Source of the DNA: Methanothrix harundinacea 6Ac
Lineage (GTDB): Archaea; Halobacteriota; Methanosarcinia; Methanotrichales; Methanotrichaceae
Assembly (NCBI RefSeq): GCF_000235565.1
Contig: NC_017527.1
Span: 1,550,001 to 1,614,000 of the forward strand
Direction of reading: 5' to 3'
Length of the DNA: 64,000 bases
Part shown: in pieces, positions 29,549 to 46,783 of the stretch
Layout: every line of letters begins with the position of its first letter
How positions within the stretch are numbered: the first letter of the stretch is position 1
Program-made: the position numbers and the translations under genes
Notes under the pieces: model-generated
What the model saw: the letters and a program-made list of their open reading frames with translations, nothing else
Databases searched by the model: none
What the model was told of the DNA's origin: nothing

Positions 29549-32500
29549 ATGGCAAAAAAATCGACCGAAGGATCGAGATTATATAATCATGGAGAATCGG
29601 ATAAAGATCATCTTTTTCATCTAAATAAAATTACGATTCCCACCAACAACCTCAGATATATTTTTAATTCATTGATACGTAAGGGCCCGGGAAGGGCCTC
29701 CACCCTTCTCATCCTGGCCCTCATCTCCTTCGCCTCCATAACGGGTGCCTTCGCCGCCCTCAGCGGGAGCGTCATCGCCCCCGCCTCCGTCAACATCTGC
29801 GAATCGACGGGCTTCGTCGTATACATAAACAACACCGGAACGACCCCAGAAAACGACATCCTCCTCAACGTCACCATCCCTTCCGGCTTCTCTTACGACG
29901 ACGGAACCACCGTCATCACCTTCCCCAACGGCTCATCGAATCAGGACCCCCAGATCAAGGGTGGAGGGGCGTATCTGGAGTGGAACCTGACGGATATAAT
30001 GAGCACAGAGACGGGCGTCGTCCTGAACGAGATATTTCCTAACCCCATCGGCGTTGAGACGAGCAACGAGAGCTTCGAGCTCTACAACGCCGGCGCTAGC
30101 CTCGTCAACGTCAGCCAGTGGTACATCAAGGACGCAGCCGATCACACCGTCCAGATCGGACCGAACGTCATATCCGGGAGCTTGAACCTGCCCCCCGGAG
30201 GCTTCCTCTGGGTGAGGATACCGGGGCAGTCGATCCTCAACACCGGCGGCGACACGGTGAGGCTCTTCGACGGCTCGAACGTCCTGGTTGACAGCGTCAC
30301 CTATCCCGACTCAGCCAGCCACGAGGGTCAGAGCTGGGCTTCCATGCCCGACGGCTCTGAATGCTGGTCCTGGAGGAGCTCCTCCCTGGGGGCGACGAAC
30401 GGCGACCTCGCCGCCGGCGAGCGGATCCGCCTCGATTTCAACCTCACCGCCGGCTGCGCCACCCCTTCGGGGGGGCGGATCAGGGACGAGGTCATCTATC
30501 AGGGCGGGTCTGTCACCCGGTCGTCCAACTCGATCCTGGTGAAGCAGGGCTTTTTGAAGGTGGCCAAGACCCCCACCGTCGTCGAGGCGGGGGCGGGGGA
30601 CGTAGTCAACTGGACGATCACCGTCGAGAACACCGGCCTCGGCCCCGCCTTCAACGTCCGGATGAACGACACCCTCTCCTCGGGGCTGAACCTCCTCAGT
30701 ATAGACTCGCCTGGTGGCGGGCTGAACTGGAGCTACGACGTCATACCTCCCGGGGGGGTGGAGGTCGTAAACATATCGGTGAACGTCACCGCCTGTGAGG
30801 ACCTCTTCAACCGGGTGAACGCGAGCTGGGGGTGCGATGGCTCCCCATGCCAGGAGACCTACGCCAAGGCGAGCGTCAAGTTCGTCCCCCGGGATCCGGA
30901 TCTCGAGTACACCGTGAGCCCGATGGTCGTCCCCTACTGCGGGAGGGTCCCGGTCTACGTCAACGTCACCAACGAGGGGGCGGGCGGGATCACCGAGCTA
31001 CAGCTCCGCTTCGCCGGGATCTCCGCCGACTACGCCGTCACCAACGTCTCCGGTGCCACCTTCTATCCGGCAAACGAGACCTTCTTCATCGGAAGGGTCC
31101 CCGCCGGGGAGTGGAAGAACTTCACCTTCGACTTCGGGATGGCCTACGGTGCTTGCGGCGCGGCGGGCGCCTCCGGCACCATCACCATATATCCTTTCCA
31201 CTGCGACGACTGCGCAAATCCGTGGTACCCGCCGGTGAGCCTTGAGTCCTACTCGATGGACGGATCGACGATCCCCTCGATATCGGTCTCCAAGACCGCC
31301 AACAGATCGGTGATTTATCTGGGCGAGGAGGTGGAGTTCGACCTGGAGGTGACCTACACCGCCGGCTCCTGCGGCGAGAATACCACGAGGACGATCGTCG
31401 ACTCTTATCCATCGAACTTCCTGGTCATCGACTCCGCCGGAGGGGTGAACGACTCTGGGAACCGGACCATCACCTGGGCGGACCAGCTCCTGGAGGACGG
31501 AGTCACCTGGAATAAGACTATCAGGCTCTCGGCGGATCGCGATGCTGCTGCCTGCGACTGTGGAGGGCAGGTGACGAACGCCCTTTCGGTATCCCAGGGA
31601 GAGGACTGCTGCGGATGCAACATCTCCGGAAGCTCGTCGGCGGATGTAGTGGTAGTCTGCATCAACGAGACGGTCTTGGCCTCGTCGAACAAGACGGCGA
31701 CCCCGGTTCCCCAGGAGAACTGCAGGAACGTCACCTACACCACCACCTACACCTTCGCCGACTCCATCGGCTCCCTCAACTGGACCGGGATCAACTTCAC
31801 CGAGCTTGGAGGAAACGGCCAGCTCTTCCCCGACGGTAACACAAGCGGAACGGCCACTTTCACCGTAAACGACTCCTGCAGCGTAGATCAGACGATTACC
31901 ATAGAAAGCCCCAAGAACCTCGGCTTCCTCAACGGGGCCTGCGGACCCCTGGGAGGCGGCACTGTACTGGTGGTGACGTACACCCTGGGCCAGCCGGATA
32001 TCTGGTCAGGGTACGACTGGTCCCGTCTCTGCATCGAAGGGTACGGGACGGAGTGCGGAGGGGACGGCTGCCTCTACGAGGCGGCGCCCGTCACCGTCAG
32101 CCAGGCCGACTACTCCATAGGGATCTCGGGGGTCCCGACGAGGCTCGACGTATGCCAGGAGTTCAACGTCACCATATCCGTCAGCAAGGGGAGCCCCAAT
32201 GAGGATCCCAAGTGGATCGGCCACGATATGTACGTCGTCTACAACGACGAGAACTACAGGTACATCGGCAATGCCACCATCAGCGGGATCACCAACTACG
32301 TCAGCCCAAGCCAATCCGATCTCGTCGGATCTTTCGAGCCTACCCGCGTCGGAAACAACCTCACCTGGCGCCTCGGCGCCAACATCAGCCGCGGCGGGAC
32401 TATCACCTTCCCCGTAGAGAAGAGGTGCCCGGACGGGGGCGTAATGACCGCCCGCCTCAACTACACCGACAACTGCGGCAAACTCGTTGAACGCCCTGCC

Positions 32501-35500
32501 TCGGCGACGCCGTCCCTCATCCTCTCTGGAAACATCATCATCCAGAAGAACCCGGAGGTGATCTTCGCCCTGGAGAAGAACGCCAGCTGGAAGATCTACG
32601 TCACCAACACCGGGTCGGGGACCGCCTACAACGTGACGGTGAACGATACCCTGGACTCCGACCTCTCTTACGTCAGCTCCAGGATCGACGGCTCCGCGGA
32701 CCCGGCCAATACGACGGTCGTCGACGCCAACCACGTCCTCTGGAGCCTCGGGGATATGCCGCCGAAGAAGCAGCGGGTCATCGAGATGGACGCCACCCTC
32801 GTCGGCTGCGAGAACCTCAACAACCGCGTCCAGGCGGTCTGGGGCTGCGGCGACGAGGAGTGTCAGACCCCCGTCACCGACTCCTCCGTCGTCCTCCTCG
32901 TCGACGGCCAGCTTCTGATATCAAGACACGACGCCGAGCCGATAGACGACTGCGGCGACAACTCTTCCTTCCTCATCGTGGTGAGGAACGGCGCCGGCCC
33001 CACCCTCTACAACGTCAGCGTAAAAGAGGCCCTCCCGGCGGGGATCGAGTACGTCCCCGGATCATCCCAGGTGGCTGGAGGTTCTACGACCTCGACGAAC
33101 TTCTCGGGCGGCGACCTGGAATGGAGGTTCGACCAGCCCGAGGGCTGGCCCCCAGGAAAGAGCGTCACCATCACCTTCGACGTCAACGTCACCTCCGACC
33201 CCTGCGAGTTCGTCGGAGGCGAGGCCGTCGTTCAGGTGAACTACACCACCCCCTGCGGCGCCGCCGGAGCTTCCATCAAGAGCGAGATCCTGGTGGAGGA
33301 GACCGACCCCCACGTCAGCATCACCAAGACGCCAGAGCTGACGCGGGCTGGGTTCGGGAGGATTGTGACCTGGACGATTTATCTCTACAGCAACGGGGGC
33401 GACCCCGCGACGAACGTCACCCTCTTTGACCTCCTCCCCGAAAATACAGTCTATGTCTCTGCGACGCCGGAGCCCAACGATACCGATCCCCTCCGGTGGG
33501 ACTTCGGGACCCTCAACTTCGGCGAGTCCCGGACCGTCACCCTGAACGCTAACGTCACTTACCAAATAGCAGAATCCGAGAACAACGCCACCGTCTTCTG
33601 GGGATGCTGTCCTGACGACATGGGGATGGAAAGCGACGTGGCGTTTCTGAGGTCGGACCCGTTGATCACCCTCTCCAAGGATCACGGCTACATCGACACC
33701 TGCGGTGGAAACTTCACCATCACCATCAATAACAACGGCTCTGCCGCCTACACCCCTCGGGTCGAGGAGGTCCTGCCCGTCGGGTTCGTATACAAGGCGG
33801 GTTCGGCAATCATAGCGAGCGACAACGAGAGCCATACCTTCGTCGACGAGCCGGCCTTCGACTACTCTCTCGTCAACGGGACGGTTATCTGGGACGAAAG
33901 TAACATCGACTTGGTCCAGCGGATCGAGACTATAACGATCAGCTTCGAGGTGGAGAGCTGCGCCACGTGCTGCAACGTCTCCGTCACTCCGAACTCAAAC
34001 CTCGTCTACTTCAACTACACCAACAGGTTTGGTGACCCCCGATCGAAGAACTTCTCCCAAGCTATCGCCCCGAAGCTGGCGGTCCTGGAAGTCGAGAAGA
34101 CGCCTCTGAATCAGACGATCGGCGGGTCTGCTCAATGGACGATAAAGGTGACCAACTCGGGGAACAGTGCCGCCTACAACGTGACGGTCATCGACATCCT
34201 CGGAGACGGCTTTGTGGGCGTGGCCGAGGGGGATGGAAATAAGACCGCCGACGATCCCACCTCCGGCTATACCACCATAAGATGGACGAACCTCACCATT
34301 CCCGTCGGAGGGACCTGGGAGAGAGGGCTTACGGCCTCCGGCATATCCTCAGGGAGCCTCCTCAACAACGCCTATGTCTTCGGGACCTGCGAGAACGGCT
34401 GCATCTACAGCCAGGACGATGACGCCGCCTACACCGCCAGGATAAACATAACCAAGGACCCCGATTCGGTGGAGACGATCGGCGGGTTTGCGAACTTCAC
34501 GATCCGGGTGGAGTACTGGGGCGAAGGCGAGAATTACAACAACACCAGGATCGTCGACACCCTTCCTGCGGGGCTGAAATATGATAGCTATCAGTGCGTT
34601 AATGATACTAAGAACGAAGGGTGCGGGACTTTAGACGTCACCGGCAACGTCGTCACCTGGGATCTGGGCAACTTCACGGGTAGCAGGATCATCGAGATCA
34701 ACCTCAGCACCATCGTCGAGAACGTCATCGCAAATCAGAACGGTACGATCCTGGTGAACCGGGTCAGGTCCCTCCACGAGGACGAGAACGGGACGGTCTT
34801 CGAGGATGGTGACGAGGCGAAGGTGACGGTGGTGGAGCCGGACCTCTCGATCGAGAAGACCCCCGACCCGTCGGGTATAGTCGTCGCCGGCGGAGAGGTC
34901 AGGTATACGATAAGGGTAACTCATACCGCCGCCAGTGCATCGGACGCCTTCGACCTGGTGATCAACGATTCGATCCCCAGCGGCCTCGCCTTCGTCCCAG
35001 GATCGAACACCTCATCCCTTACGACTTCCTTTTCGCAGACGGGCCAGAACCTCAGCTGGACCCTCTCAAGGCTGAACCTGACGGGCGCGAACTCCGTCCT
35101 CCTCACCTACAACGTGACCGTCGACCTGGACGTTTTGGGCAACACGACCCTATTGAACTTCGCAAACGTCACCTGGACGAGCACTTCAGGAGCGAACCCT
35201 AACGAGCGTACTGGCAACGGGACGGGTCCAAACGACTACTTCAGGAACGCCTCGGCACCAGTATCGGTCGAGAACTCGACGACGGTGATCAAGCTTCCCG
35301 ACGATCTCCGGTTCCGTACGATCGGCGAGTCGGTCAACTACACGATCGAGGTCGACCTTCCCAACGCCACCGTTGGGGACCTCTGGGTTAACGACACTCT
35401 GCCATCGGGCCTCATCTACAACACGACTAGCCTCGTAGTCTTAGACAAGTTCGGATCCGTCCTCACCCCGACGGAGACGTTGAGCGACCCGAACGACGGC

Positions 35501-38500
35501 ACCTCGACGGTCTTCATCAACTGGTCGTTTGGCACCTTCAACAACTCGGATGACCGAGACATCGTGATCACCTTCGACGCGATCGTTGCGAATGTCGCGG
35601 CAAACCAGGACGGCCGGACCATCGGCAACAACTCGGCCTCTTACAGCTGGCTCGACGGGTCGGGCGTCCGCCATACGGGCACCGACGAGTCGGGTGAGGT
35701 CGAGATCGAAGAGCCCGACCTTGACATAACGAAGACGTTCAGCCCCGCGGGCCCCTTCAGCGTCGGCGACACGATCCATTACGAGATCAACGTGACGAAC
35801 TCCGCCCCGAGCCGCCGTACGGCCTTCGACCTGGTGATCACCGACGAGATCCCGGTCGGTTTGAGCTACGTCAACTCATCGGACTCTGGGGTCTATTCCG
35901 GTTCCAACCGGACTGTCACCTGGACTTTCGCCAGCCTCGCCCTCGACTCCTGGCTTAAGGTAACCTACAACGTGACCGTCGACCTGGACGTTTTGGGCAA
36001 CACGACCCTATTGAACTTCGCCAACGTCACCTGGACGAGCACTTCAGGAGCGAACCCTAACGAGCGTACTGGCAACGGGACGGGTCCAAACGACTACTTC
36101 AGGAACGCCTCGGCACCAGTATCGGTCGAGAACTCGACGACGGTGATCAAGCTTCCCGACGATCTCCGGTTCCGTACGATCGGCGAGTCGGTCAACTACA
36201 CGATCGAGGTCGACCTTCCCAACGCCACCGTGGGGGACCTCTGGGTTAACGACACTCTGCCATCGGGCCTCATCTACAACACGACTAGCCTCGTAGTCTT
36301 AGACAAGTTCGGAGCCGTCCTCACCCCGGCGGAGACGTTGAGCGACCCGAACGACGGCACCTCGACGGTCTACATCAACTGGTCGTTTGGCACCTTCAAC
36401 AACTCAGAGGATCGTGACATCGTTATCACCTTCGATGCGATCGTGGCCAACGTCGCTGCGAACCAGGACGGCCGGACCATCGGTAACAACTCGGCGGCTT
36501 ACAGCTGGCTCGACGGTTCAGGGGTCCGCCATACTGGCACCGACGACTCGGGGAAGGTCGGCATAGTCGAACCGGACCTATCCATCACCAAGTCGGTCGA
36601 GCCCTTCTCTGTGGTCAAGCTGGGGGACGAGGTCAGGTTCACCCTGGTCGTCAACCACACGGGCTTGAGCACCAGCGACGCCTACGATCTGGTCATCGAA
36701 GACGTCTTGCCTCTCGGCCTCACTTACGTATCCAACACCTCGACGCCGGAGGCGAACAGCTCGGCCTACCATCCGGGGAACAGGACGATCCGGTGGAGTT
36801 ACGACCGGCTTGAAGATCCCGGCGAGGTCGTTCTCACCTACAACGCCACCGTCGATGCCAGGCCGGAAGGCCTGATCTTCAGAAACTCGGCTGGCGTCAC
36901 CTGGACGAGCACTGTGGGCGAGAACCCCTACGAGCGGAACGGCAGCGGCACGGGTCCGAACGATTACATCGATTCGACGAGCATCGACGTCATATTCGCC
37001 GAGATTACTGTGGATAAGGTCGCCAACGTCTCTTCGGGCTCGACGAGCACCCGGGTCAACTTCACCATCACCGTCAACAACACCGGGAACGCCACGTTGA
37101 ACCCCGTGGTGGTGACCGACACCCTGCCCGTCGGCCTCGACGATCCGGTGCCGAGCGGAGATGGCTCAGCCTTTGGTAACGTCGTCGTCTGGAACCTGGG
37201 GCAGATGGACCCCGGAGCCTCGCGCGCCCTCTGGCTGACTGCCCACATCAACGGCTCCGCCTTCGGCAACCTGACCAACAAAGTATTCGTGGAGGGGAAG
37301 CCTGAGGAAGGCGGAAACGTCACCGGCAACGGTTCGGCGAACGTGACGGCCGTTGACGCCTCGATCAGCATCGATAAGATGGCGAACGTCACCTCCGGCT
37401 CGACGAGCACCCGGGTCAACTTCACCCTGGTCGTCAACAATACGGGGAATGCGACTCTCGATCCCGTAGTCGTCACCGACACTCTGCCGTTCGGCCTCGA
37501 CGACCCGTTGGCGAGCGGTGGCGGCACAGCCACCGGTAACGTCGTCGTCTGGAGCCTGGGTCCGATGGACTCCGGGGCTTCGAGGACTCTCTGGGTGACT
37601 GCCCACATCAACGGCTCCGCCTACGGCAACCTGACGAACCTGGCCTTCGTCGAGGGTAAGCCGGAGAAGGGGGACAACGTCACCGATGACGACTTCGCCA
37701 ACGTTACGGCCGTCGATGCCTCAATCAGCATCGATAAGATGGCGAACGTCTCCTCCGGCTCGGCTAGCACCAGAGTGAACTTCACGCTAGTCGTCAACAA
37801 CACCGGGAACGCGACCCTCGATCCGGTGGTGGTGACGGACACGTTGCCGTTCGGCCTCGACGACCCTGTGGCGAGCGATGGCGGCTCCACCTCCGGTAAC
37901 GTCGTCGTCTGGAACCTGGGTCCGATGGACTCCAGGGCTTCGAGGACCCTCTGGGTGACTGCCCACATCAACGGCTCGAGGTTCGGTAACCTGACGAACC
38001 TGGCCTTCGTCGAGGGTAAGCCGCAGAATGGCGACAACGTCACCGACGACGACTCCGCCAACGTTACTGCCGTCGATGCCTCAATCAGCATCGATAAGAT
38101 GGCGAACGTCTCCTCCGGCTCGACGAGCACCCGGGTCAACTTCACCCTCGTCGTCAACAACACCGGGAACGCGACTCTCGATCCGGTGGTGGTGACGGAC
38201 ACGTTGCCGTTCGGCCTCGACGATCCAATAGCGAGCGATGGCGGCTCCGCCTTTGGGAACGTCGTCGTCTGGAACCTGGGACGGATGGATCGCGGGGATT
38301 CGAGGACTCTCTGGGTGACTGCCCACATCAACGGCTCCGCCTACGGCAACCTGACGAACGTGGCCATCGTCGAGGGTAAGCCGGAGAAGGGGGACAACGT
38401 CACCGATGACGACTTCGCCAACGTTACGGCCGTCGATGCCTCAATCAGCATCGATAAGATGGCGAACGTCACCTCCGGCTCGACGAGCACCCGGGTCAAC

Positions 38501-41500
38501 TTCACCCTCATCGTCAACAACACCGGGAACGCGACCCTCGATCCGGTCGTGGTTACGGACACGTTGCCGTTCGGCCTCGATGACCCGGTGGCGAGCGATG
38601 GCGGCTCCGCCTCCGGGAACGTCGTCGTCTGGAACCTGGGTCAGATGGACTCCGGGGACTCGAGGACCCTCTGGCTGACGGCCCACATCAACGGCTCCGC
38701 CTACGGCAACCTGACGAACGTGGCCATCGTCGAGGGTAAGCCGGAGAAGGGGGACAACGTCACCGATGACGACTTCGCCAACGTTACGGCCGTCGATGCC
38801 TCAATCAGCATCGATAAGATGGCGAACGTCTCCTCCGGCTCGACGAGCACCCGGGTCAACTTCACCCTCGTCGTCAACAACACCGGGAACGCGACCCTCG
38901 ATCCGGCCGTGGTTACGGACACGTTGCCGTTCGGCCTCGATGACCCGGTGGCGAGCGATGGCGGCTCAGCCTCCGGGAACGTCGTCGTCTGGAACCTGGG
39001 ACGGATGGATCGCGGGGATTCGAGGACTCTCTGGCTGACTGCCCACATCAACGGCTCCGCCTACGGCAACCTGACGAACGTGGCCATCGTCGAGGGTAAG
39101 CCGGAGAAGGGGGACAACGTCACCGATGACGACTTCGTAAACGTTACGGCCATAGATGCCTCGATCAGCATCGATAAGAAGGCGAACGTCTCCTCCGGCT
39201 CGGCCAGCACCCGGGTCAACTTCACCCTCGTCGTCAACAACACCGGGAACGCGACCCTCGATCCGGTGGTGGTGACGGACACGTTGCCGTTCGGCCTCGA
39301 CGATCCTGTAGCGAGCGATGGCGGCACTGCCTCCGGGAACGTCGTCGTCTGGAACCTGGGACGGATGGATCGCGGGGATTCGAGGACCCCCTGGCTGACT
39401 GCCCACATCAACGGCTCCGCCTACGGCAACCTGACGAACGTGGCCTTCGTTGAGGGTAAGCCCGAGAACGGGGACAACGTCACCGCCGAGGACTCGGCGA
39501 ACGTGACCGCCGTCCGCGCCGGCATATCCGTACACAAAGTCGTCGACATACCCGTGGGGGAGGTCTGCACCAACGTGACCTTCACCATATTCGTCAACAA
39601 TACCGGTAACGTCCGCCTCGATCCGGTCGTGGTGGCCGACACTTTGCCTTTGGGCCTCGAATACGTCAGCTCAGCTCCACCGGGAGCCAGGTCAGGAAAC
39701 ACCATCATCTGGAACCTGGGCTCGATGGACCCCGGAGAGATGAGGATCGTCAATCTTGTAGCCCACATCAACGGCTCCGCCTTCGGTGAGCTGCAGAACT
39801 TCGTCAAGGTCGAAGGCAAGCCCGAACGCGGCGACAACGTCACCGACAACGACACCGAGAATGTCACCGCCCTGGGGGCGGAGATCGCCGTCGATAAGAG
39901 CGTCGACATCCCCGTCGGGTCCAGGAGCACCCGGGTCAACTTCACCATCCTCGTCAACAACACCGGGAACGTGGCGCTGGACCCGGTCTTGGTGGAAGAC
40001 ACCCTGCCTTTCGGCCTCGATGACCCGGTCCCGAGCTCCGGTGGTATCATATCGGGGAACGTCGTCACCTGGAACCTCGGCCGGCTGAACGTCGGCGAGA
40101 ATAGGACCCTATGGCTATCGGCCCACATCAACGGCTCTGCCTACGGCGATCTCACGAACGCCGTCCGGGTCGAAGGGGATTCCGAGTTCGGCGAGAACGC
40201 CACCGCCGAGGACTCCGAGAATGTGACGGCCGTCGACGCCTCGATCAGCATCGATAAGATGGCGAACGTCACCTCAGGCTCGACGAGCACCCGGGTCAAC
40301 TTCACCCTCGTCGTCAACAACACCGGAAACGCCACGTTGGACCCCGTAGTGGTGACGGATACCCTGCCATTCGGCCTCGACGAGCCGGAGACGAGTTCCG
40401 GAGGATCGATCACGGGCGGGGTTGCGACCTGGGGATTGGGGAGGATGGATCCCGGGGATTCGAGGACCCTCTGGCTGACGGCTCACATCAACGGCTCTGC
40501 CTTCGGAACCCTCACAAACTTCGTGGAGGTGGTGGGGAAGCCCGAGGAGGGTGACAACGTCACCGACGAAGCCTCGGCGAACGTGACCGCCCTGAAGGCG
40601 GATATCGAGGTGGAGAAGACCGTGGACAGTCCCGTCGCAAAGAACGGCTCGGTTGCGACCTTTACCATAATAGTGACCAACACCGGGAACGCCACCCTGG
40701 ACCCGGTCATCGTCACCGACACCCTCCCGTTCTGCTTCGAATATGTCAGCTCGACGGAGAACGGCACCGCGGCAGGAGGCGTCGTCACCTGGAACCTCGG
40801 ACGGCTCAACTCCAGCGATTCGAGGACGATCTTGCTGGAGGCGAGGGTGAACTGCTCTGAGGCCGGGGTTCTGGAAAACCTGGTGGAGGTGGAGGGGAAG
40901 CCCGAGCAGGGGGATAACGTCACCGACAGGGATACCGCGGAGCTGACGATCGGGAGAAATCTCACCATCACGAAGGTGGCCGATAAATGCGAGGTCCAGG
41001 AGTGTGACGAGGTCACCTACACCATCACCGTCTGCAACCACGGCGGCCTCCCCGAGGAGAACGTCACCGTCTGGGACGTCTTCTACGGAGATGTGGAGAT
41101 CCTCTCGATCACCCCCGCCCCCGATCCCGACCGAAAATGGCACTTCGGCACTTTGCAGCCTGGCGAATGCGTCGTGATCAAGATCAAGATCAAAGTCCCC
41201 GAGCGGCAGGACTTCGAGTTCGGTATGGAGCAGGGCGTCAGCGGCGAGGGTTTCGTCAAGGTGGCGAACGACTACAGCACGAGCTTCCAGGCCTACTTCA
41301 TCAAGAACTGCGCCTTCGTCACCAGCGACTTCTATACGAAGCCCCTCTCGGCCTGCGCCACGATAAGGGTCGGCGAGGACCTGGGAACGCGCCTCTCGAC
41401 TAGAGAGTACGGCTCCGGCCTCTTCGACGCCGAGGAGCGGGTTGCGGTCTTCACGAAGAACAAGTCGATCGAGTGGGAGGAGGACGTCTCGGCGACCTAC

Positions 41501-43231
41501 AAGCCTACGAACCTGACATTATATAACAACCGGACCATCGCTTACGACTCGGCCTGGGTTAAGAAGGCGAGGGCTAAGAACTACGTCACCGGGACGACGA
41601 TGACGGAGACGTACCACGACGCGACCTGGCTGGACCGGGAGTCGAGGATGTTCCTCGACAAGAACGAGTCGGTGATGGAGGTCGACAGTTCCTTCGACGG
41701 CCGGGGCCACGTGGGCTTCCTCAAGATGCCGACGAACAGGTCGTCGCCCCAGACGACGCCGCTGATCGAGGTCCGGGAGGACTACGTCGGGAGCTTCAAG
41801 GTCGTCCAGAAGATCGACGAGTACGGCAAGGGCGTCTCCTACGAGAAGGCGGCCTCCGGCGGCGGCCTGGTGGTGGGCGACCGGCGTATCGGAGGGAGCC
41901 AGAGGAGCTACGAGTCGGGGTCGGGCGCCTACGACTCCGAGGAGGTCATCGAGACCTATACGAACTACATAGCAAAAGACATCAGCCTCGTTTACGCCCC
42001 GACGACGACGAGGCTGACCGACGACGTCTGGATCAACAGCTCGATGAAGTGGAAGGAGGGTCTCTATTCGAGGGTCCCGGCCAGAAGCTACATCGGCGAG
42101 GAGTACACCGGGGTCACCGAGCTGGATAAGGAGACGGTGGCGAGGGGCTTGAACGAGATGGAGACCTCTGCCGACTTCTCGGGGCAGGCCCGGTACAGGG
42201 CGGTGTTCGCCGATCCGAACGATACGAAGAGGCCTTTCGTCGAGTTCGATGAGGTTTACGCCGGCGACTACTCGATCGAGCGGCGGGTCCTCCTAACGGG
42301 TACGTCCAAGTACGACCGGCCCCACCTGAACGTGACCAAGACCCTGGACGGGATCGTCGAAGAGAAGGACAAGTGCGACGGCGACAACTGCAGCAAGACG
42401 AAGTACATAGCGACCTACACCATCCGGATCGAGAACGACGGGAACGCCGCCCTGGGACCGATATACGTCAAGGACCTCTTCCCGCCGGGGGCGGTCTTCG
42501 TCGAGTCGTCGCTGAGGCCTTCGGATATTACGGATAGTTACGCCAACTGGACCCCGACCCACATCGCCATCGGCGGAGTGGTCGAGATCGTCGTCAAGCT
42601 GGACGTCACCAAGTACTATCCGTCGGAGCTGGTGAACAGGGTCGAGGTCTGCGGCGGCTACAACGGCGAGGTGGTCTGTTTCGGCAACACCAGCGCCCTG
42701 GAGGTGAACTGGCTCACATGTTGTTTGAACGAGACGGTCTCGGTGGTGAAGAGCTGCGAGGTCGACGGTGCTGACGGGATGGTGGTCCTGTACCGGATCG
42801 ATATCGAGAACCGTGCCGACGTCACCCGGGTGGCGAGGGTCACAGACCATCTGCCCGAGGGGATGACGTTCCTCGACTCTTCGACACCGGTCGCCTCTTA
42901 CGATGGGGTCGAGGTCGTCTGGAACCTGATCGATATCGGGCCGTTCGAGACGAGGACGATCGAGCTCTCGGCCCGGGCTTCGGCCCCCGGCAGGTACACC
43001 AACGTCGTCATCGTTGACCCAAGGTCCGTCGATGGGCCCGTCGTCCAGCCGGTGACCGCCTCTTGCGTCGTCGAGGTCGGATCCCTCGAGGAGTGCGGAC
43101 CCACCTCCTGCGAGATCTGGAGCCCGCCGAACTGGGACCTCCAGCACATCGGATACGAGCCGGCCGAGGTCGCCTCCGAGGGTCTGGCCTGCGCCGGCTC
43201 CGATGGGAGGGGGTCGTGCCCTGCGCCGTGA
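29549..43231 (+). CDS. Giant exported DUF11-repeat surface protein (4,560 residues)
   Basis: A 46-residue cytoplasmic lead precedes a signal helix (STLLILALISFASITGAFAA). Residues about 155-250 form a lamin-tail domain (TGVVLNEIFPNPIGVETSNE ... GDTVRLFDGSNVLVDSVTYP). From about 335 the protein is built of DUF11 (immunoglobulin-like) repeats with the NTGN...DTLPxGL...WxLGxM signature. Two 286-residue-spaced copies lie at about 1850-2340 and eleven exact-length 120-residue units at 2487-3806. Residues about 3945-4250 hold two copies of a different domain (REYGSGLFDAEERV / RSYESGSGAYDSEEV). Two more DUF11 repeats close the protein. It is crowded with N-x-S/T sequons. There is no C-terminal membrane helix or sorting tail; it ends RGSCPAP. 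Likely an adhesin or sheath-associated protein. Confidence 0.93.
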   Translation: MAKKSTEGSRLYNHGESDKDHLFHLNKITIPTNNLRYIFNSLIRKGPGRASTLLILALISFASITGAFAALSGSVIAPASVNICESTGFVVYINNTGTTPENDILLNVTIPSGFSYDDGTTVITFPNGSSNQDPQIKGGGAYLEWNLTDIMSTETGVVLNEIFPNPIGVETSNESFELYNAGASLVNVSQWYIKDAADHTVQIGPNVISGSLNLPPGGFLWVRIPGQSILNTGGDTVRLFDGSNVLVDSVTYPDSASHEGQSWASMPDGSECWSWRSSSLGATNGDLAAGERIRLDFNLTAGCATPSGGRIRDEVIYQGGSVTRSSNSILVKQGFLKVAKTPTVVEAGAGDVVNWTITVENTGLGPAFNVRMNDTLSSGLNLLSIDSPGGGLNWSYDVIPPGGVEVVNISVNVTACEDLFNRVNASWGCDGSPCQETYAKASVKFVPRDPDLEYTVSPMVVPYCGRVPVYVNVTNEGAGGITELQLRFAGISADYAVTNVSGATFYPANETFFIGRVPAGEWKNFTFDFGMAYGACGAAGASGTITIYPFHCDDCANPWYPPVSLESYSMDGSTIPSISVSKTANRSVIYLGEEVEFDLEVTYTAGSCGENTTRTIVDSYPSNFLVIDSAGGVNDSGNRTITWADQLLEDGVTWNKTIRLSADRDAAACDCGGQVTNALSVSQGEDCCGCNISGSSSADVVVVCINETVLASSNKTATPVPQENCRNVTYTTTYTFADSIGSLNWTGINFTELGGNGQLFPDGNTSGTATFTVNDSCSVDQTITIESPKNLGFLNGACGPLGGGTVLVVTYTLGQPDIWSGYDWSRLCIEGYGTECGGDGCLYEAAPVTVSQADYSIGISGVPTRLDVCQEFNVTISVSKGSPNEDPKWIGHDMYVVYNDENYRYIGNATISGITNYVSPSQSDLVGSFEPTRVGNNLTWRLGANISRGGTITFPVEKRCPDGGVMTARLNYTDNCGKLVERPASATPSLILSGNIIIQKNPEVIFALEKNASWKIYVTNTGSGTAYNVTVNDTLDSDLSYVSSRIDGSADPANTTVVDANHVLWSLGDMPPKKQRVIEMDATLVGCENLNNRVQAVWGCGDEECQTPVTDSSVVLLVDGQLLISRHDAEPIDDCGDNSSFLIVVRNGAGPTLYNVSVKEALPAGIEYVPGSSQVAGGSTTSTNFSGGDLEWRFDQPEGWPPGKSVTITFDVNVTSDPCEFVGGEAVVQVNYTTPCGAAGASIKSEILVEETDPHVSITKTPELTRAGFGRIVTWTIYLYSNGGDPATNVTLFDLLPENTVYVSATPEPNDTDPLRWDFGTLNFGESRTVTLNANVTYQIAESENNATVFWGCCPDDMGMESDVAFLRSDPLITLSKDHGYIDTCGGNFTITINNNGSAAYTPRVEEVLPVGFVYKAGSAIIASDNESHTFVDEPAFDYSLVNGTVIWDESNIDLVQRIETITISFEVESCATCCNVSVTPNSNLVYFNYTNRFGDPRSKNFSQAIAPKLAVLEVEKTPLNQTIGGSAQWTIKVTNSGNSAAYNVTVIDILGDGFVGVAEGDGNKTADDPTSGYTTIRWTNLTIPVGGTWERGLTASGISSGSLLNNAYVFGTCENGCIYSQDDDAAYTARINITKDPDSVETIGGFANFTIRVEYWGEGENYNNTRIVDTLPAGLKYDSYQCVNDTKNEGCGTLDVTGNVVTWDLGNFTGSRIIEINLSTIVENVIANQNGTILVNRVRSLHEDENGTVFEDGDEAKVTVVEPDLSIEKTPDPSGIVVAGGEVRYTIRVTHTAASASDAFDLVINDSIPSGLAFVPGSNTSSLTTSFSQTGQNLSWTLSRLNLTGANSVLLTYNVTVDLDVLGNTTLLNFANVTWTSTSGANPNERTGNGTGPNDYFRNASAPVSVENSTTVIKLPDDLRFRTIGESVNYTIEVDLPNATVGDLWVNDTLPSGLIYNTTSLVVLDKFGSVLTPTETLSDPNDGTSTVFINWSFGTFNNSDDRDIVITFDAIVANVAANQDGRTIGNNSASYSWLDGSGVRHTGTDESGEVEIEEPDLDITKTFSPAGPFSVGDTIHYEINVTNSAPSRRTAFDLVITDEIPVGLSYVNSSDSGVYSGSNRTVTWTFASLALDSWLKVTYNVTVDLDVLGNTTLLNFANVTWTSTSGANPNERTGNGTGPNDYFRNASAPVSVENSTTVIKLPDDLRFRTIGESVNYTIEVDLPNATVGDLWVNDTLPSGLIYNTTSLVVLDKFGAVLTPAETLSDPNDGTSTVYINWSFGTFNNSEDRDIVITFDAIVANVAANQDGRTIGNNSAAYSWLDGSGVRHTGTDDSGKVGIVEPDLSITKSVEPFSVVKLGDEVRFTLVVNHTGLSTSDAYDLVIEDVLPLGLTYVSNTSTPEANSSAYHPGNRTIRWSYDRLEDPGEVVLTYNATVDARPEGLIFRNSAGVTWTSTVGENPYERNGSGTGPNDYIDSTSIDVIFAEITVDKVANVSSGSTSTRVNFTITVNNTGNATLNPVVVTDTLPVGLDDPVPSGDGSAFGNVVVWNLGQMDPGASRALWLTAHINGSAFGNLTNKVFVEGKPEEGGNVTGNGSANVTAVDASISIDKMANVTSGSTSTRVNFTLVVNNTGNATLDPVVVTDTLPFGLDDPLASGGGTATGNVVVWSLGPMDSGASRTLWVTAHINGSAYGNLTNLAFVEGKPEKGDNVTDDDFANVTAVDASISIDKMANVSSGSASTRVNFTLVVNNTGNATLDPVVVTDTLPFGLDDPVASDGGSTSGNVVVWNLGPMDSRASRTLWVTAHINGSRFGNLTNLAFVEGKPQNGDNVTDDDSANVTAVDASISIDKMANVSSGSTSTRVNFTLVVNNTGNATLDPVVVTDTLPFGLDDPIASDGGSAFGNVVVWNLGRMDRGDSRTLWVTAHINGSAYGNLTNVAIVEGKPEKGDNVTDDDFANVTAVDASISIDKMANVTSGSTSTRVNFTLIVNNTGNATLDPVVVTDTLPFGLDDPVASDGGSASGNVVVWNLGQMDSGDSRTLWLTAHINGSAYGNLTNVAIVEGKPEKGDNVTDDDFANVTAVDASISIDKMANVSSGSTSTRVNFTLVVNNTGNATLDPAVVTDTLPFGLDDPVASDGGSASGNVVVWNLGRMDRGDSRTLWLTAHINGSAYGNLTNVAIVEGKPEKGDNVTDDDFVNVTAIDASISIDKKANVSSGSASTRVNFTLVVNNTGNATLDPVVVTDTLPFGLDDPVASDGGTASGNVVVWNLGRMDRGDSRTPWLTAHINGSAYGNLTNVAFVEGKPENGDNVTAEDSANVTAVRAGISVHKVVDIPVGEVCTNVTFTIFVNNTGNVRLDPVVVADTLPLGLEYVSSAPPGARSGNTIIWNLGSMDPGEMRIVNLVAHINGSAFGELQNFVKVEGKPERGDNVTDNDTENVTALGAEIAVDKSVDIPVGSRSTRVNFTILVNNTGNVALDPVLVEDTLPFGLDDPVPSSGGIISGNVVTWNLGRLNVGENRTLWLSAHINGSAYGDLTNAVRVEGDSEFGENATAEDSENVTAVDASISIDKMANVTSGSTSTRVNFTLVVNNTGNATLDPVVVTDTLPFGLDEPETSSGGSITGGVATWGLGRMDPGDSRTLWLTAHINGSAFGTLTNFVEVVGKPEEGDNVTDEASANVTALKADIEVEKTVDSPVAKNGSVATFTIIVTNTGNATLDPVIVTDTLPFCFEYVSSTENGTAAGGVVTWNLGRLNSSDSRTILLEARVNCSEAGVLENLVEVEGKPEQGDNVTDRDTAELTIGRNLTITKVADKCEVQECDEVTYTITVCNHGGLPEENVTVWDVFYGDVEILSITPAPDPDRKWHFGTLQPGECVVIKIKIKVPERQDFEFGMEQGVSGEGFVKVANDYSTSFQAYFIKNCAFVTSDFYTKPLSACATIRVGEDLGTRLSTREYGSGLFDAEERVAVFTKNKSIEWEEDVSATYKPTNLTLYNNRTIAYDSAWVKKARAKNYVTGTTMTETYHDATWLDRESRMFLDKNESVMEVDSSFDGRGHVGFLKMPTNRSSPQTTPLIEVREDYVGSFKVVQKIDEYGKGVSYEKAASGGGLVVGDRRIGGSQRSYESGSGAYDSEEVIETYTNYIAKDISLVYAPTTTRLTDDVWINSSMKWKEGLYSRVPARSYIGEEYTGVTELDKETVARGLNEMETSADFSGQARYRAVFADPNDTKRPFVEFDEVYAGDYSIERRVLLTGTSKYDRPHLNVTKTLDGIVEEKDKCDGDNCSKTKYIATYTIRIENDGNAALGPIYVKDLFPPGAVFVESSLRPSDITDSYANWTPTHIAIGGVVEIVVKLDVTKYYPSELVNRVEVCGGYNGEVVCFGNTSALEVNWLTCCLNETVSVVKSCEVDGADGMVVLYRIDIENRADVTRVARVTDHLPEGMTFLDSSTPVASYDGVEVVWNLIDIGPFETRTIELSARASAPGRYTNVVIVDPRSVDGPVVQPVTASCVVEVGSLEECGPTSCEIWSPPNWDLQHIGYEPAEVASEGLACAGSDGRGSCPAP
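35107..36558 (+). repeat. Two long direct repeats about 595 bp each, offset 858 bp, in the giant gene
   Basis: Copy A spans about 35107-35700 and copy B about 35965-36558. The first roughly 370 bases are almost identical at DNA level; the last 150 differ mainly at synonymous sites, for example GATGACCGAGACATCGTG against GAGGATCGTGACATCGTT. The sharp change in identity within one repeat is what gene conversion or partial reduplication would leave. Confidence 0.85.
37008..40967 (+). repeat. Eleven in-phase 360-bp tandem repeats in the giant gene
   Basis: Each unit begins with a form of ISIDKMANVSSGSTSTRVNF, continues NNTGNATLDPVVVTDTLPFG and LTAHINGSAYGNLTNVA, and is exactly 120 codons. Unit starts are 37008 plus multiples of 360. 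Units 2-7 are close to identical; units 8, 9 and 11 (ISVHKVVDI, IAVDKSVDI, IEVEKTVDS) have diverged while keeping the exact length. Confidence 0.95.
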
Positions 43232-43363
43232 GAGGGCGCGGGGCCATAACCATCATTTATCCTCATCGTGGGGTTCGGCTCAGCGAAGAGGGGATCTCAG
43301 AAGAGATGGGGACGACTGGCGCTCGGATGGTGCGCCAGCGTCTTTGTCATGCTGCGGATACCT

Positions 43364-44188
43364 TCAGACCGGCTCGGGCTTGTCGAGGAGCCCCGTCTTC
43401 GCCAGGATCGCCCCCGACCGGGCGTGGGGCCTCCGAGATACCGAGTCCGTCGACTTCTCCAGCTCCCTAGCCTCGTCGGCGAGCCTCGCCGCAGCCCGCA
43501 TCACCTCGTGGCCTGCGGCGGCGGTGAGGGCGATCCTATCCAGCTCCTTCAGCCTGAAGCAGGCCGCCGCGTCGATCCCCGCCACCGTCTGGGCCATGTG
43601 GAGCGCGCCGATCGCCTTGGCTCGGGCGTAGGGGTTTCTGAAGGCCATCCTGTCGGTGCAGCCCTCAGGGCTGGATAGGATGGTGGGGAGCCTCGGGGCC
43701 CCCGAAATGATGCTGGCCATCGCCCCGTCCAGCTCCTCCTGAACGAGCCTGACGGACCCGCAGATGCTCAGGACCTTGAGGGCATCGGAGTTGAAGAGGG
43801 CCATCTCCGCGGGGTCGAGGAACTCCCGCTTCGCCCCGATGAGGGGGTCGAAGGGGAGGATGATGTAGCCGAACCCCTCCGCCTCCAGGGCCTCCCGGGC
43901 CTCCTTCTTGGAGGGGCCGTCGGAGATGACGATCGTCGGCACGTCCCTGTACAAGGCCCGGGCCGCCGTGGGGCCGGGGGTGGCGGCGTTGGGGCCGACG
44001 ATCACCACCAGCTGGGGACCCCACCCCTTCAGCTCCGCCGACATCTCCGCCTCCTTCACCGTCATCTTGGCTCCGAAGGATAGGGATCTCACCTCTACGT
44101 CGGTCCGCTCGGCGATCTCGTCCAGGGCCAGGTCTGCGACCAGGGAGGATGCGACGTTGCCGAGCTTGATGAATCCGATCTTGAACAT
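43364..44188 (-). CDS. mtd: F420-dependent methylenetetrahydromethanopterin dehydrogenase
   Basis: 274 residues. The start MFKIGFIKLGNVASSLVADL is the Mtd signature, followed by VVIVGPNAATPGPTAAR, TIVISDGPSKK, GFGYIILPFDPLIGAKREFL, LKVLSICGSVRLVQEELDG and NPYARAKAIGALHMAQTVAG. Mtd interconverts methylene- and methenyl-H4MPT with coenzyme F420, a cytoplasmic step of the C1 branch. In an acetate-using methanogen it would serve oxidative or biosynthetic C1 flow. It is the last gene of the minus-strand group with mtrH and phosphomevalonate dehydratase, 48 bases after the small subunit. Confidence 0.96.
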   Translation of the reverse strand: MFKIGFIKLGNVASSLVADLALDEIAERTDVEVRSLSFGAKMTVKEAEMSAELKGWGPQLVVIVGPNAATPGPTAARALYRDVPTIVISDGPSKKEAREALEAEGFGYIILPFDPLIGAKREFLDPAEMALFNSDALKVLSICGSVRLVQEELDGAMASIISGAPRLPTILSSPEGCTDRMAFRNPYARAKAIGALHMAQTVAGIDAAACFRLKELDRIALTAAAGHEVMRAAARLADEARELEKSTDSVSRRPHARSGAILAKTGLLDKPEPV

Positions 44189-44236
44189 GGCAACAACCCG
44201 CTCCGGTGATGCATCCGGATCATAAAAGAGTTCCGA

Positions 44237-44641
44237 TCACAGCCCATCCCTGACGATCACCCTCCCTCGATCGGCGTCTACGGTCACGAGGGTCCCCTCC
44301 TCCAGCCGGAGGATATCGGCGGGGAGGCCGTCGACGAGGGGTATCCCGCTGATGATGGCGCCGACGGCGACGATCGGCTCAGACCTCAGGTTGATCATCG
44401 CCGCCGGGGCGACGCCCCTCTTCTTCAGCTGGTAGATGACGTAGGACCCGACGGTAGACCCCTTGCCTCCCGGGAAGATCAGGACCTTGCCGCCGATGGC
44501 CTTCCCGAAGAGCTGATGGCCGGGGTCGACGACTTCTCCCGTCTCCGGGTCTACGGTGCCGAGGAAGGATATCGCCTCCCTCGAGGCCAGGGCGGGGGCC
44601 GAGGCCGATCCGCCGGATATTTTGTGGCAAAGAAACTCCAT
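44237..44641 (-). CDS. Phosphomevalonate dehydratase small subunit (aconitase X swivel domain)
   Basis: 134 residues from ATG 44641. MEFLCHKISGGSASAPALAS, GHQLFGKAIGGKVLIFPGGK, GSTVGSYVIYQLKKRG, AAMINLRSEPIVAVGAIISG and a GTLVTVDADRGRVIVRD end are the DUF126/AcnX small subunit. The large and small subunits together dehydrate mevalonate 5-phosphate to trans-anhydromevalonate phosphate in the archaeal mevalonate pathway for lipid isoprenoids. The start lies two bases after the large-subunit stop. Confidence 0.93.
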   Translation of the reverse strand: MEFLCHKISGGSASAPALASREAISFLGTVDPETGEVVDPGHQLFGKAIGGKVLIFPGGKGSTVGSYVIYQLKKRGVAPAAMINLRSEPIVAVGAIISGIPLVDGLPADILRLEEGTLVTVDADRGRVIVRDGL

Positions 44642-44643
44642 GG

Positions 44644-45807
44644 TCAGCCCCTCCTGGTGGCGGCTTCGACGCATTCAGCAGCGCTGCCGTAGGCTGCCTT
44701 CATCTTGCAGAGGGTGGGGACGTAGGCTAGGGCCTTTCCTGAGTTGACCATCATCTTATTGTACCGGTCGCTGGCGGGAGAGACGACCATGCAGGTGTCG
44801 CATAAGACCCGCGCCCCCGACCCCTCGATCTTCTCGACGAGGCGCGGGCACCTCTCGGCTATCCCCCGGGCGGTGCAGATCCAGAGCTCCCGTTCCACCT
44901 TTTTCCCCTCCAGGAGGCGGGCGAGCTCCTCCAGCTCCCTCTCCGAGGTGTGGGGGCAGCCGATGGCGACGATGTCCACCTCCTCGTCGGGGGCGTTCTC
45001 CTCCCGGACGGCCCGAAGGTCCGCGGCAGTGACCTCGATCTCCTCCGCCCCCTTCGGGGCCTCCGGCCCCCCCTCCTCGAAGTAGTAGAGGGCGACGGAG
45101 CCGCTCGCCGCCATGGCCGCCCCCAGGGCCTTCAGCTCATCGATATCGGGCCTCCTCCGGAATATGAACTGCGGAACCCCCTCGCCCACCTCTCTTCCGA
45201 CGATGAAGCCCAAGATGCCGTAGTCGGAAGGTTTGAGATCGGCATCGACGGCGATATTGATGGTGGGGACCCGGTTCTCCTCCAGGTGGTAGCCGTATCG
45301 GGGGGTCTTCCCCACCAGGGCCGCCGCCAGGGCCGAGGGCCCCCCCTCCCGGTTCGTCCTCGCCCCGATGACGGAGTTCGCGAAGGAGACGGCGGAGGAC
45401 TCGCTCCAGGCGAGGTGGTCGCCCCTCCGGGCAAAATCGGGCCTGATCTGGTAGGGGGTGCAGGTGCAGTCCGGGGAGACCCCGAGGCGGCGGTAGGCCT
45501 CCACGACCTCGAGCTGCTTTTTTGCGAAACTCTCGTCTATCCCCATCTCCCGCCAACGGTGGAGGTCCATCCCCGCGGGGTTCAGGACCGCGGGGACCGC
45601 GACCTTGCCCTGGAGGTCTGAGATCCACTCCAGCCCCGCCTCGCCGATCGTCTTGAAGGAGACCCCCGCCACCTGGACGGACCTGACGGGGATCAGCCGA
45701 TCGGCTCCGTAGATGTCGCCGAGGGCCACCAGGATCTCCATCGCCTTCCTGAGGCTATCGCCGAGCTCCCCCTGGTGCGCCCGCTCCTCCTCCCGCGATA
45801 GATGCAT
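44644..45807 (-). CDS. Phosphomevalonate dehydratase large subunit (aconitase X catalytic)
   Basis: 387 residues. The family signatures are VQVAGVSFKTIGEAGLEWIS, PAVLNPAGMDLHRW, SPDCTCTPYQIRPDFARRGD, LAWSESSAVSFANSVIGART, REGGPSALAAALVGKTPRYG, AIGCPHTSERELEEL and the C-terminal LCDTCMVVSP with TLCKM. Cysteines in CTCTPY, DTC and TLC fit ligands of the [4Fe-4S] cluster. It forms the dehydratase with the adjacent small subunit. It lies 46 bases downstream of mtrH in the same direction. Confidence 0.93.
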   Translation of the reverse strand: MHLSREEERAHQGELGDSLRKAMEILVALGDIYGADRLIPVRSVQVAGVSFKTIGEAGLEWISDLQGKVAVPAVLNPAGMDLHRWREMGIDESFAKKQLEVVEAYRRLGVSPDCTCTPYQIRPDFARRGDHLAWSESSAVSFANSVIGARTNREGGPSALAAALVGKTPRYGYHLEENRVPTINIAVDADLKPSDYGILGFIVGREVGEGVPQFIFRRRPDIDELKALGAAMAASGSVALYYFEEGGPEAPKGAEEIEVTAADLRAVREENAPDEEVDIVAIGCPHTSERELEELARLLEGKKVERELWICTARGIAERCPRLVEKIEGSGARVLCDTCMVVSPASDRYNKMMVNSGKALAYVPTLCKMKAAYGSAAECVEAATRRG

Positions 45808-45853
45808 GCCCCTCCCCTGGGGCCGGAGATATAAAAAGGCTCAGATCGGGCGG

Positions 45854-46783
45854 TCAGATCAGCCTCCCGATGGGGTGGCCCGCGGCGGGCCAGACCTCCA
45901 GGTCCTTCGCCGCCTCTGAGATGAGGATGTCGGCCATCGCCGCCACCGGGAAGACCTCCCCTGCCCGCTCGATGGGGCCGTAGAGTACGAAGTCGCCTCC
46001 GGCCAGGATCTCGAAGCCGGCAGAGGCGGCGTCGCAGACGAGCCTCGTTCCCCTCTCCTTCGACCGGAGCCACCTCCAGGAGGAGACGGCGTTGTGGATC
46101 CCCGAGCCCGCCGGCAAACCGAACTTCGCCTTCGCGAGGACGGTGGCCCGCAGCGACCTCCCCGCTCCGTCCCCCAGGGGGACGACGCCGGGGTCGATGA
46201 GGATGTTGTTGATCTCGAGGCGGCGGGCGAGGTCGACGAGCCCCTCCTTCCGCCCCGGACCCCCCTCCGCCAGGACCCGGATCGTCCCCTCGACGGTGGA
46301 GTCGGCGGGGCTGTAGCCGAGGAGGATGGCGGAGTCGACCTCGCCGTGGGCCAGGGCCTCCTCCTCCTGGGGGGTGGTGGCGATGCCGATGCTGTTGTAT
46401 ATGCACCTGTCAGCGAGGCCGATCTCCGAGACGGCCTCCGCCATGGCGATCCGCGTCCCCGCCTCGGCGGAGTCGAGGATCAGCGGGCCGGACCAGAGGC
46501 CGTCGACGAAGTCGAGGTATCTGCCGAAGGCCTCCCGGGTCCTGGCGTATATATGCAAAACGGCGGGGTTTCCCGTCTCCTCCGAGAGGGCGGTCTGTCT
46601 TTCGATCAGCCCCTCGGCAGCCCCCTCGTCGAACCTCCCCCGGACCGGGTCCTCCACCAGCCTCTGGCCCTGATAGAATATCGTCCCGCAGAGGGCCGTC
46701 GGGTTCTCCCCCGGCTGCCCCCCTATCTTCACCCCGGCGACGTTCACCACCTCTTGATCTCTCGCAAACCTGAACAACTCCAC
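45854..46783 (-). CDS. mtrH: Methyl-H4MPT methyltransferase subunit H (MtrH family)
   Basis: 309 residues. VVNVAGVKIGGQPGENPTAL, CGTIFYQGQRLVEDPVRGRF, LILDSAEAGTRIAMAEAVSE, IYNSIGIATTPQEEEAL and GIHNAVSSWRWLRS are MtrH hallmarks. In the Mtr complex MtrH moves the methyl group between H4MPT and the corrinoid of MtrA. Here no mtrA-G genes are adjacent, so it is either a displaced complex subunit or a paralogue working with another corrinoid protein. It groups with mtd and phosphomevalonate dehydratase. Confidence 0.9.
   Translation of the reverse strand: MELFRFARDQEVVNVAGVKIGGQPGENPTALCGTIFYQGQRLVEDPVRGRFDEGAAEGLIERQTALSEETGNPAVLHIYARTREAFGRYLDFVDGLWSGPLILDSAEAGTRIAMAEAVSEIGLADRCIYNSIGIATTPQEEEALAHGEVDSAILLGYSPADSTVEGTIRVLAEGGPGRKEGLVDLARRLEINNILIDPGVVPLGDGAGRSLRATVLAKAKFGLPAGSGIHNAVSSWRWLRSKERGTRLVCDAASAGFEILAGGDFVLYGPIERAGEVFPVAAMADILISEAAKDLEVWPAAGHPIGRLI

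Follow-up and report, generated by a model that had tools for sequence, protein, structure and literature searches.

Eleven equal 360-bp units with a homogenized core form part of a predicted CLIPPER (DUF11) stalk in a probable sheath adhesin of Methanothrix harundinacea 6Ac

Related stalk and sheath proteins

Periscope proteins carry tandem, highly similar folded stalk domains whose DNA identity is sufficient for recombination within the gene (PMC8201768). The locus presented here, from a 64,000-nucleotide stretch of M. harundinacea 6Ac contig NC_017527.1 (the window, to which all coordinates refer), resembles them in its tandem similar domains, which have a predicted Ig fold, lie in a surface stalk, and share 85 to 95% DNA identity across units 2 to 7. 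It differs in being archaeal and probably sheath fixed, in having old units 8, 9, and 11, and in repeat-number differences that were seen here only between species. CLIPPER (DUF11, PF01345) stalk domains, represented by crystal structure 9IFR (PMC12617251), share with the units presented here the family, a predicted CnaA-like Ig fold, a Lys-Asp-Asn triad, and tandem placement in long surface proteins. The window differs from known CLIPPER stalks in its archaeal host and in its eleven exactly equal units with a homogenized block, and the covalent bond is predicted only.

Ig-bearing SH (sheath) proteins have been reported from Methanotrichales and ANME-1, with an amyloid-like SH core of two sheets of six antiparallel strands (PMC11576556). 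The protein encoded in the window resembles these sheath adhesins in lineage, in a long run of Ig-like domains linked to an all-beta, long-stranded module, and in having no visible membrane anchor, and it differs in its length of 4560 aa, in a double module near the C terminus, and in an SH identity that is likely only. The accessible parts of the literature on Methanosaeta with DUF11 and on Methanothrix sheath or Ig-like adhesins contained no treatment of this array. Filamentous members of this group construct anaerobic granules and produce much methane, and the locus offers a candidate for the device by which they hold their partners: a long, probably isopeptide-locked stalk that is probably fixed in the amyloid-like sheath and includes a recombination-prone segment.

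Array period and unit identity

Tandem repeat analysis (TRF) detected a period of 360 bp with 9.9 copies at positions 37013 to 40566, and self-match at a lag of 360 extended over positions 36774 to 41092; at 11 other lags tried (300 to 390), no 360-bp window exceeded 50% self-match. Positions 37008 to 40967 comprised eleven units of exactly 360 bp each with zero indels, flanked on both sides by sequence at background identity (about 30%). The coordinates in Table 1 (37007 to 40966) follow the codon phase and describe the identical array shifted by one base. Both the eleven equal repeats and the period exact to the base across the array, as proposed in the initial annotation, were thus borne out. 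The array of a related species had the same 360-bp period. Constant unit length is a feature of the protein, with one 120-residue domain per unit, and the period may stay exact while the sequence drifts because the fold tolerates no indel.

Table 1. Features of the giant ORF and its array in window coordinates
Feature	Coordinates	Strand	Basis
4560-aa ORF, giant Ig-like (DUF11) protein, presumably secreted, probable sheath adhesin	29549..43231	+	ORF list, profile hits, third-position GC 0.845
N-terminal extension with hydrophobic signal-peptide-like segment, residues about 53-69	29549..29758	+	Read by eye from translation
Lamin tail domain (LTD) at residues 153-253, possibly distal	30005..30307	+	Pfam PF00932
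Second, younger tandem duplication, copies 35090-35709 and 35948-36567, 858 bp apart, 93% identical	35090..36567	+	Self-comparison
Array of eleven 360-bp units, each one predicted CLIPPER/DUF11 domain	37007..40966	+	TRF, self-match, profile hits, alignment
Homogenized block, units 2-7, 85-95% DNA identity	37367..39526	+	Identity matrix, unit tree
Old units 8 and 9, grouping with counterparts in other species	39527..40246	+	Unit tree
Mosaic unit 10, core type over its initial 90 bp (94%), remainder 71% to core	40247..40606	+	Alignment
Unit 11, old, grouping with final unit of M17C-04	40607..40966	+	Unit tree
Block shared with same-genome paralog, 92% DNA identity	40958..43239	+	Genome comparison
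Unannotated 333-aa module, all beta, with two halves homologous to each other, probably a double SH (sheath) core	41300..42298	+	Distribution, profile comparison, predicted fold
Two DUF11-like domains, then C-terminal tail with cysteines and W-x-P-P-x-W (43118-43140)	42299..43228	+	Translation, profile scans

The best pairs within units 2 to 7 reached 94 to 95% DNA identity, and identical runs between units extended up to 150 bp. Identity to this block was 77 to 80% for unit 1, 74 to 77% for unit 10, 69 to 74% for unit 9, 62 to 65% for unit 8, and 59 to 60% for unit 11. Young middle units and old outer units were therefore found as initially described, but "almost identical" was slightly strong for the middle, and the "graded identity" was not smooth, since old unit 8 and unit 9 sit between the block and the younger mosaic unit 10.

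Predicted fold and isopeptide bond of the units

The DUF11 profile (PF01345) matched 23 stretches of the protein (E = 5.7e-281), with all eleven units above its cutoff (51 to 73 bits versus 24.6), and TIGR04226 (isopeptide-forming fimbrial domain) matched 6 stretches. An AlphaFold2 model of two units (pLDDT 93.4) resembled the CLIPPER crystal structure 9IFR with a Z score of 14.7 and an rmsd of 2.0 over 116 residues, with integrin legs ranked above 9IFR in the fold list at similar scores and larger rmsd. In single queries, the sequence match to 9IFR was weak, both for the unit (E = 0.22) and with an upstream domain (E = 0.0034), and a PDB profile search with the units found nothing relevant. 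The profile matches and the predicted structure identify each unit as one 120-residue CLIPPER (DUF11) Ig-like domain of the CnaA type, and this assignment and the predicted fold support the stalk reading of the initial annotation.

A Lys-Asp-Asn triad (K4, D38, and N91) was present in all 21 full-length units compared (11 here and 10 from two relatives), and the Lys and Asp aligned with those of 9IFR in a single-query match. Each unit most likely locks itself by a Lys-Asn isopeptide bond helped by the Asp, and such self-locked domains would form a chain of stiff, protease-resistant 120-residue modules. One Ig domain is about 4 nm long, which puts the array at about 45 nm as a rough figure rather than a computed one. 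The triad Asp of 9IFR is printed as Asp-748 (PMC12617251); our own count along the chain gave 749.

Concerted evolution and unit number

When units of three species (that of the window, M17C-04, and UBA1; one genome per species) were placed in one tree, units 8, 9, and 11 paired with their counterparts in the relatives (supports of 100/99, 97/95, and 100/100), and a single clade of units 8 and 9 was rejected (AU test, P = 4.8e-7). Units 1 to 7 and 10 clustered by genome (97/95), as did the UBA1 core (95/91). Gene order was conserved. Third-position identity of unit 10 to the core dropped near base 90 from 87% to 49%; across the same point, third-position identity between the cores of two species went from 60% to 44%. 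In six core pairs, dN/dS was 0.17 to 0.28. Homogenization of the central units by recombination, as initially proposed, is supported by the three-species tree and by mosaic unit 10, and the tree makes the array a clear example of concerted evolution for a surface protein from an archaeon.

The inner units might instead derive from a recent lineage-specific burst of duplication without continuing homogenization, with the outer units as older leftovers. Mean unit identity did fall with distance, from 79.5% between neighbors to 57.8% between the two units farthest apart, which is the pattern of stepwise duplication, but whole-unit duplication would not yield a mosaic with a sharp break inside unit 10, and units 1 to 7 and 10 grouped by genome despite the old units between them, so that a burst is unlikely. 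Under continuing homogenization, long identical stretches between inner units would allow unequal crossing-over and gene conversion, which would homogenize units 2 to 7, spill into unit 10, and could lead to in-frame gain or loss of whole units. Units 8, 9, and 11 would escape and keep their cross-species identity.

Unit number differed between species toward the C-terminal end of the array: M17C-04 had 0 units and the window had 1 between the unit-9 and unit-11 types, and UBA1 had three more units after the unit-9 type. The comparison covered the assembled units of the relatives, as the contig from UBA1 stops within the array and that from M17C-04 carries an N gap directly ahead of it. Such breaks are what repetitive genes cause in assemblies, and the count of eleven could in the same way be partly an artifact; this is very improbable, given that the eleven units were all distinct, down to the best pairs, and that the frame was open throughout, although the true count might still differ by whole units. 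A contig scan with a two-unit query found no match. Tuning of stalk length by copy number, also suggested in the initial annotation, is plausible.

Host protein and C-terminal module

Near the N terminus, the only recognizable domain was the LTD, which scored 43.9 bits against a cutoff of 34.3 (46.8 bits when only the N-terminal piece was scanned); it is a possible distal domain, and no established ligand-binding domain was recognized. The protein is probably secreted. Pfam and NCBIfam scans of the protein detected no archaeosortase-type C-terminal sorting family, and no hydrophobic segment was read from the translation at the C-terminal end of the chain. An NCBIfam match to Cbf5 was far below the cutoff and was taken as chance. 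Minus-strand ORFs over the array (177 to 289 aa) were set aside on the basis of plus-frame third-position GC (0.85) and dN/dS well below 1.

The halves of the C-terminal module were homologous to each other, with long antiparallel strands in both, and the first half matched a small secreted family at 97.2% in hhalign. A contig scan with the module returned 80 loci. The module was present in 50 of 237 genomes of the class, all in the family of the window (Methanotrichaceae), and in 16 of 294 genomes of a phylum sample (10 in the same family, 5 in f11, and 1 in f10). The McrA sequences of the two f11 genomes searched were closest to 3SQG, which we take to be the ANME-1 McrA, and f11 is accordingly read as ANME-1. 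Methanotrichaceae and f11 correspond to the lineages from which SH proteins with Ig-like domains have been reported; this distribution of the module supports a sheath reading, and the double module is probably an SH-type core and the likely sheath anchor of the protein.

Alternatively, the protein could be an ordinary Ig-like stalk held by the S-layer or loosely attached to the cell, with the module structural or adhesive rather than a sheath core. The module had no Pfam or NCBIfam family name in the scans, and fold searches of the PDB and of viral models gave it no hit at E values up to 0.001; a second fold comparison showed resemblance only to open beta-sheets and barrels (best Z score, 9.0). 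Of three small genes that neighbor the presumed SH cluster, two did not align convincingly with the module in profile comparison; the small genes, near 704 kb in a genome that is presumably that of M. thermoacetophila PT, are presumably the Mthe_0667/0668 cluster. The module had no match among the viral contigs scanned, though viral SH-like proteins have been reported (PMC11576556). The agreement in distribution and the match of the first half to the small secreted family argue against this alternative, which is distinctly unlikely.

A giant sheath adhesin with a homogenized CLIPPER stalk is the best explanation of the whole, and we consider it likely. In such an adhesin, the C-terminal double module of the secreted chain would serve as an amyloid-like core of the SH type, inserted in the protein sheath around the filament, and the N-terminal part, with the LTD and other Ig-like domains, would project outward, with the array setting part of its reach. 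Such a protein would function in adhesion, and the length of its stalk would be under selection. The module, which suggests the attachment point of the stalk, lies outside the coordinates covered by the initial annotation.

A paralog with another stalk

The same genome encodes a paralog whose final 2.3 kb matched the gene at 92% DNA identity and which had a different stalk fold (SdrD_B/SpaA). It is possible, though we hold the idea only tentatively, that a periscope-like system with exchangeable stalks is present on the archaeal sheath. In it, one sheath-inserting base (the double SH-type module, two Ig-like domains, and the W-x-P-P-x-W tail) would have been joined by recombination to stalks whose folds are unrelated (CnaA-type CLIPPER and CnaB-type SdrD_B/SpaA), and in-frame recombination within each stalk would change the reach. 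If so, the filament could retune its contact with syntrophic partners, parasites, and granule neighbors without a change of anchor. Since the paralog pair joins one C-terminal module to two stalk folds, the idea of swappable stalks is directly testable. The SdrD_B/SpaA stalk, like the CLIPPER array, consists of tandem isopeptide-associated domains but has a prealbumin-like fold and a period of 267 to 279 bp.

Array structure and unit identity

The array is of the ordinary stalk-domain kind, in an arrangement that is unusually long and partly homogenized. The initial annotation had described eleven repeats of exactly 360 bp, and the period of 360 found by Tandem Repeats Finder, a self-comparison signal at lag 360 (0 of 11 other tried lags gave a signal), and the indel-free units all agree with this description. 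The 360-bp period is also kept in the array of UBA1, a relative of the same genus, and is exact because one unit is one domain; the spacing of the upstream domains in the same protein is uneven.

Features of the array locus and its counterparts in two relatives (window coordinates unless a contig is named)
Feature	Location	Strand	Remarks
Array	37008-40967; codon phase 37007-40966	+	Eleven units of 360 bp, no indel
ORF holding the array, 4560 aa	29549-43231	+	
C-terminal module	41300-42298	+	No Pfam or NCBIfam name
W-x-P-P-x-W	43118-43140	+	Near the C-terminus of the 4560-aa protein
UBA1 counterpart	Contig DAQG01000044.1 (L049/L068)		Neighboring genes match window 43361-48424 at 80-84%
M17C-04 counterpart	Contig JANKMW010000077.1 (L050/L061)		Matches window 43362-44238 at 86%

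Pfam DUF11 (PF01345) matched 23 stretches of the 4560-aa protein (E = 5.7e-281), and NCBIfam models for DUF11-type repeats and an isopeptide-forming fimbrial domain matched 22 and 6 stretches, respectively. DUF11 has been renamed CLIPPER, following a crystal structure in which an Asp lies close to an isopeptide bond between Lys and Asn (PMC12617251). The triad K4, D38, and N91 was kept in all 21 full 120-residue units compared (11 from the window, 8 from UBA1, and 2 from M17C-04, a second relative of the genus; two UBA1 units, one partial and one of 127 residues, were excluded, as were three from a different gene of the relative G008), where it accounts for 3 of the 21 invariant columns. The predicted structure of window units 4 and 5 (pLDDT 93.4) ranked integrin legs at the top of a fold comparison, with an rmsd of about 10 over two domains, and one unit of the model matched the CLIPPER structure 9IFR with a Z of 14.7 and an rmsd of 2.0 over 116 residues. 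With Phmmer, the Lys and Asp of unit 11 aligned with those of 9IFR at a weak E value of 0.22. We infer an isopeptide bond in the units.

Tandem DNA repeats of >60% identity at lags of 240 to 540, with differing periods, were found in 45 of 84 sequences scanned (the window, 80 module-encoding loci, and three others), which makes arrays of this sort a common feature of the protein group. The window's array was the longest among these sequences, at 10.7 copies by that measure, followed by arrays of 8.5 and 7.1 copies, although many of the contigs are short. The array probably works in the manner of a periscope protein (PMC8201768) and is a candidate member of that class, in which repeat number varies between strains. 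A second in-gene tandem duplication lies upstream of the array (35090-35709 and 35948-36567, 858 bp apart, 93% identical). A different gene in G008 (L051; G008:C16:112000-131000) carries a 360-bp DUF11-like array of approximately four units, with flanks that, from a reading of the translation, resemble von Willebrand-type domains.

The 4560-aa protein contained 202 N-x-S/T sequons, compared with 63 ± 7 in shuffled sequences and 67 occurrences of the reversed motif. Within units, the sequon at N104 was kept in 21/21 and that at N82 in 18/21. STT3-type oligosaccharyltransferase had four matches in the genome (C2:545812, 1172704, 1546280, and 1864428), one of them ~3 kb before the window. Together, these sequence features make heavy glycosylation of the stalk plausible.

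Unit similarity and unit number

Units 2 to 7 were 85 to 95% identical to one another in DNA, and identity to them was 77 to 80% for unit 1, 74 to 77% for unit 10, 69 to 74% for unit 9, 62 to 65% for unit 8, and 59 to 60% for unit 11. The graded identity described initially therefore holds as a core of similar units with more diverged units around it, but their order follows no smooth gradient.

Two relatives, UBA1 and M17C-04, had readable array counterparts. In a DNA tree, units 8, 9, and 11 paired with UBA1 unit 5 (support, 100/99), M17C-04 unit 1 (97/95), and M17C-04 unit 2 (100/100), respectively, while units 1 to 7 clustered with unit 10 (97/95) and the core units of UBA1 made up a separate cluster (95/91). 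Forcing units 8 and 9 together was rejected (AU test, P = 4.8e-7). The dS between unit 8 (39527-39886) and its UBA1 (L049) partner was only 0.38, and that between unit 9 and its UBA1 counterpart was 1.02.

Unit 10 was mosaic, with third-position identity to the core of 87% in the first 90 bp and 49% beyond; the corresponding values between the two species' cores were 60% and 44%. In a mismatch-clustering test applied to eight units, unit 10 gave P = 0.002. The longest identical runs between adjacent units were 150 bp, and dN/dS was 0.17 to 0.28 in six core pairs, each from one genome. The species-wise core groups and mosaic unit 10 favor the homogenization proposed initially, but unit similarity dropped as the distance between units grew, as stepwise duplication would also produce, so that continuing exchange and separate duplication bursts in each lineage are separable only in part.

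M17C-04 had no unit between those of the unit-9 and unit-11 types, and the window had one there; UBA1 had three further units beyond the unit-9 type (two of 120 residues and one of 127). These differences indicate between-species gain or loss of units at the C-terminal end of the array. The UBA1 array is partial, its contig ending within it, and an N gap immediately precedes the readable part of the M17C-04 array. Among eight other genomes of the genus, matches to the array stretch were long in two (UBA1, 3156 bases; M17C-04, 809 bases), short only in four, and absent in two.

C-terminal module and tail motif

The C-terminal double all-beta module had nine strong copies in the window's genome. 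It was found in 50 of 237 genomes of the class, all 50 from the window's family, Methanotrichaceae, which was absent among the 20 unmatched class genomes listed (167 more were unmatched). A sample of 294 genomes from the phylum yielded 16 with the module (10 from the window's family, 5 from f11/g81, and 1 from f10/g124, the codes denoting family and genus outside Methanotrichaceae). McrA was present in four of the six nonfamily genomes, all f11, and in the two f11 genomes searched it was closest to 3SQG, which we take to be the ANME-1 enzyme. The 80 module loci listed were labeled Methanothrix, Methanosaeta, Methanocrinis, Methanotrichaceae, or Methanosarcinales.

The module halves were homologous (hhalign, 98.8%), and the first half matched a small secreted family, comprising one protein each from the relative G023 and the window's genome (97.2%, E = 3e-11); two adjoining small G023 proteins gave no convincing profile match to the module. 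The G023 family member presumably sits about where Mthe_0668 should be, going by gene number. Mthe_0668 is named among the most transcribed sheath (SH) proteins in PMC11576556, which also reports sheath-forming SH proteins from every member of Methanotrichales and from some ANME-1. Some SH proteins bear chains of Ig-like domains; these "sheath adhesins" could stand in for membrane-anchored adhesins (PMC11576556). The module model showed long antiparallel strands (pLDDT 92.5), and a fold search with it returned no PDB or viral match with E up to 0.001. The module is likely a double SH core, and the array-bearing protein is probably a sheath adhesin.

L053, a 2138-aa paralogue in the same genome (C2:671724-678137; L053:1725-8138), has its last 2.3 kb in common with the window gene at 92% DNA identity, and the common block begins at window position 40958, where the array ends. 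Its stalk consists of 267- to 279-bp units of the SdrD_B/SpaA/CarboxypepD_reg type, a different fold from that of the window array, and its N-terminal domain is "choice-of-anchor E." One C-terminal part under two kinds of stalk suggests module exchange. The motif W-x-P-P-x-W occurred 10 times in the genome and its reversed control 0 times. By position, 9 of the 10 occurrences lie downstream of the nine strong copies of the module, at distances of about 0.7 to 1.1 kb; the motif is possibly a new signature of the C-terminus.

Elsewhere in the window, a 759-aa minus-strand ORF with no Pfam match (25863-28139) overlaps a 693-aa plus-strand ORF. The minus-strand neighbors at 43367-48471 encode methylene-H4MPT dehydrogenase, aconitase X, and UvrC, and the same gene order is found in UBA1.
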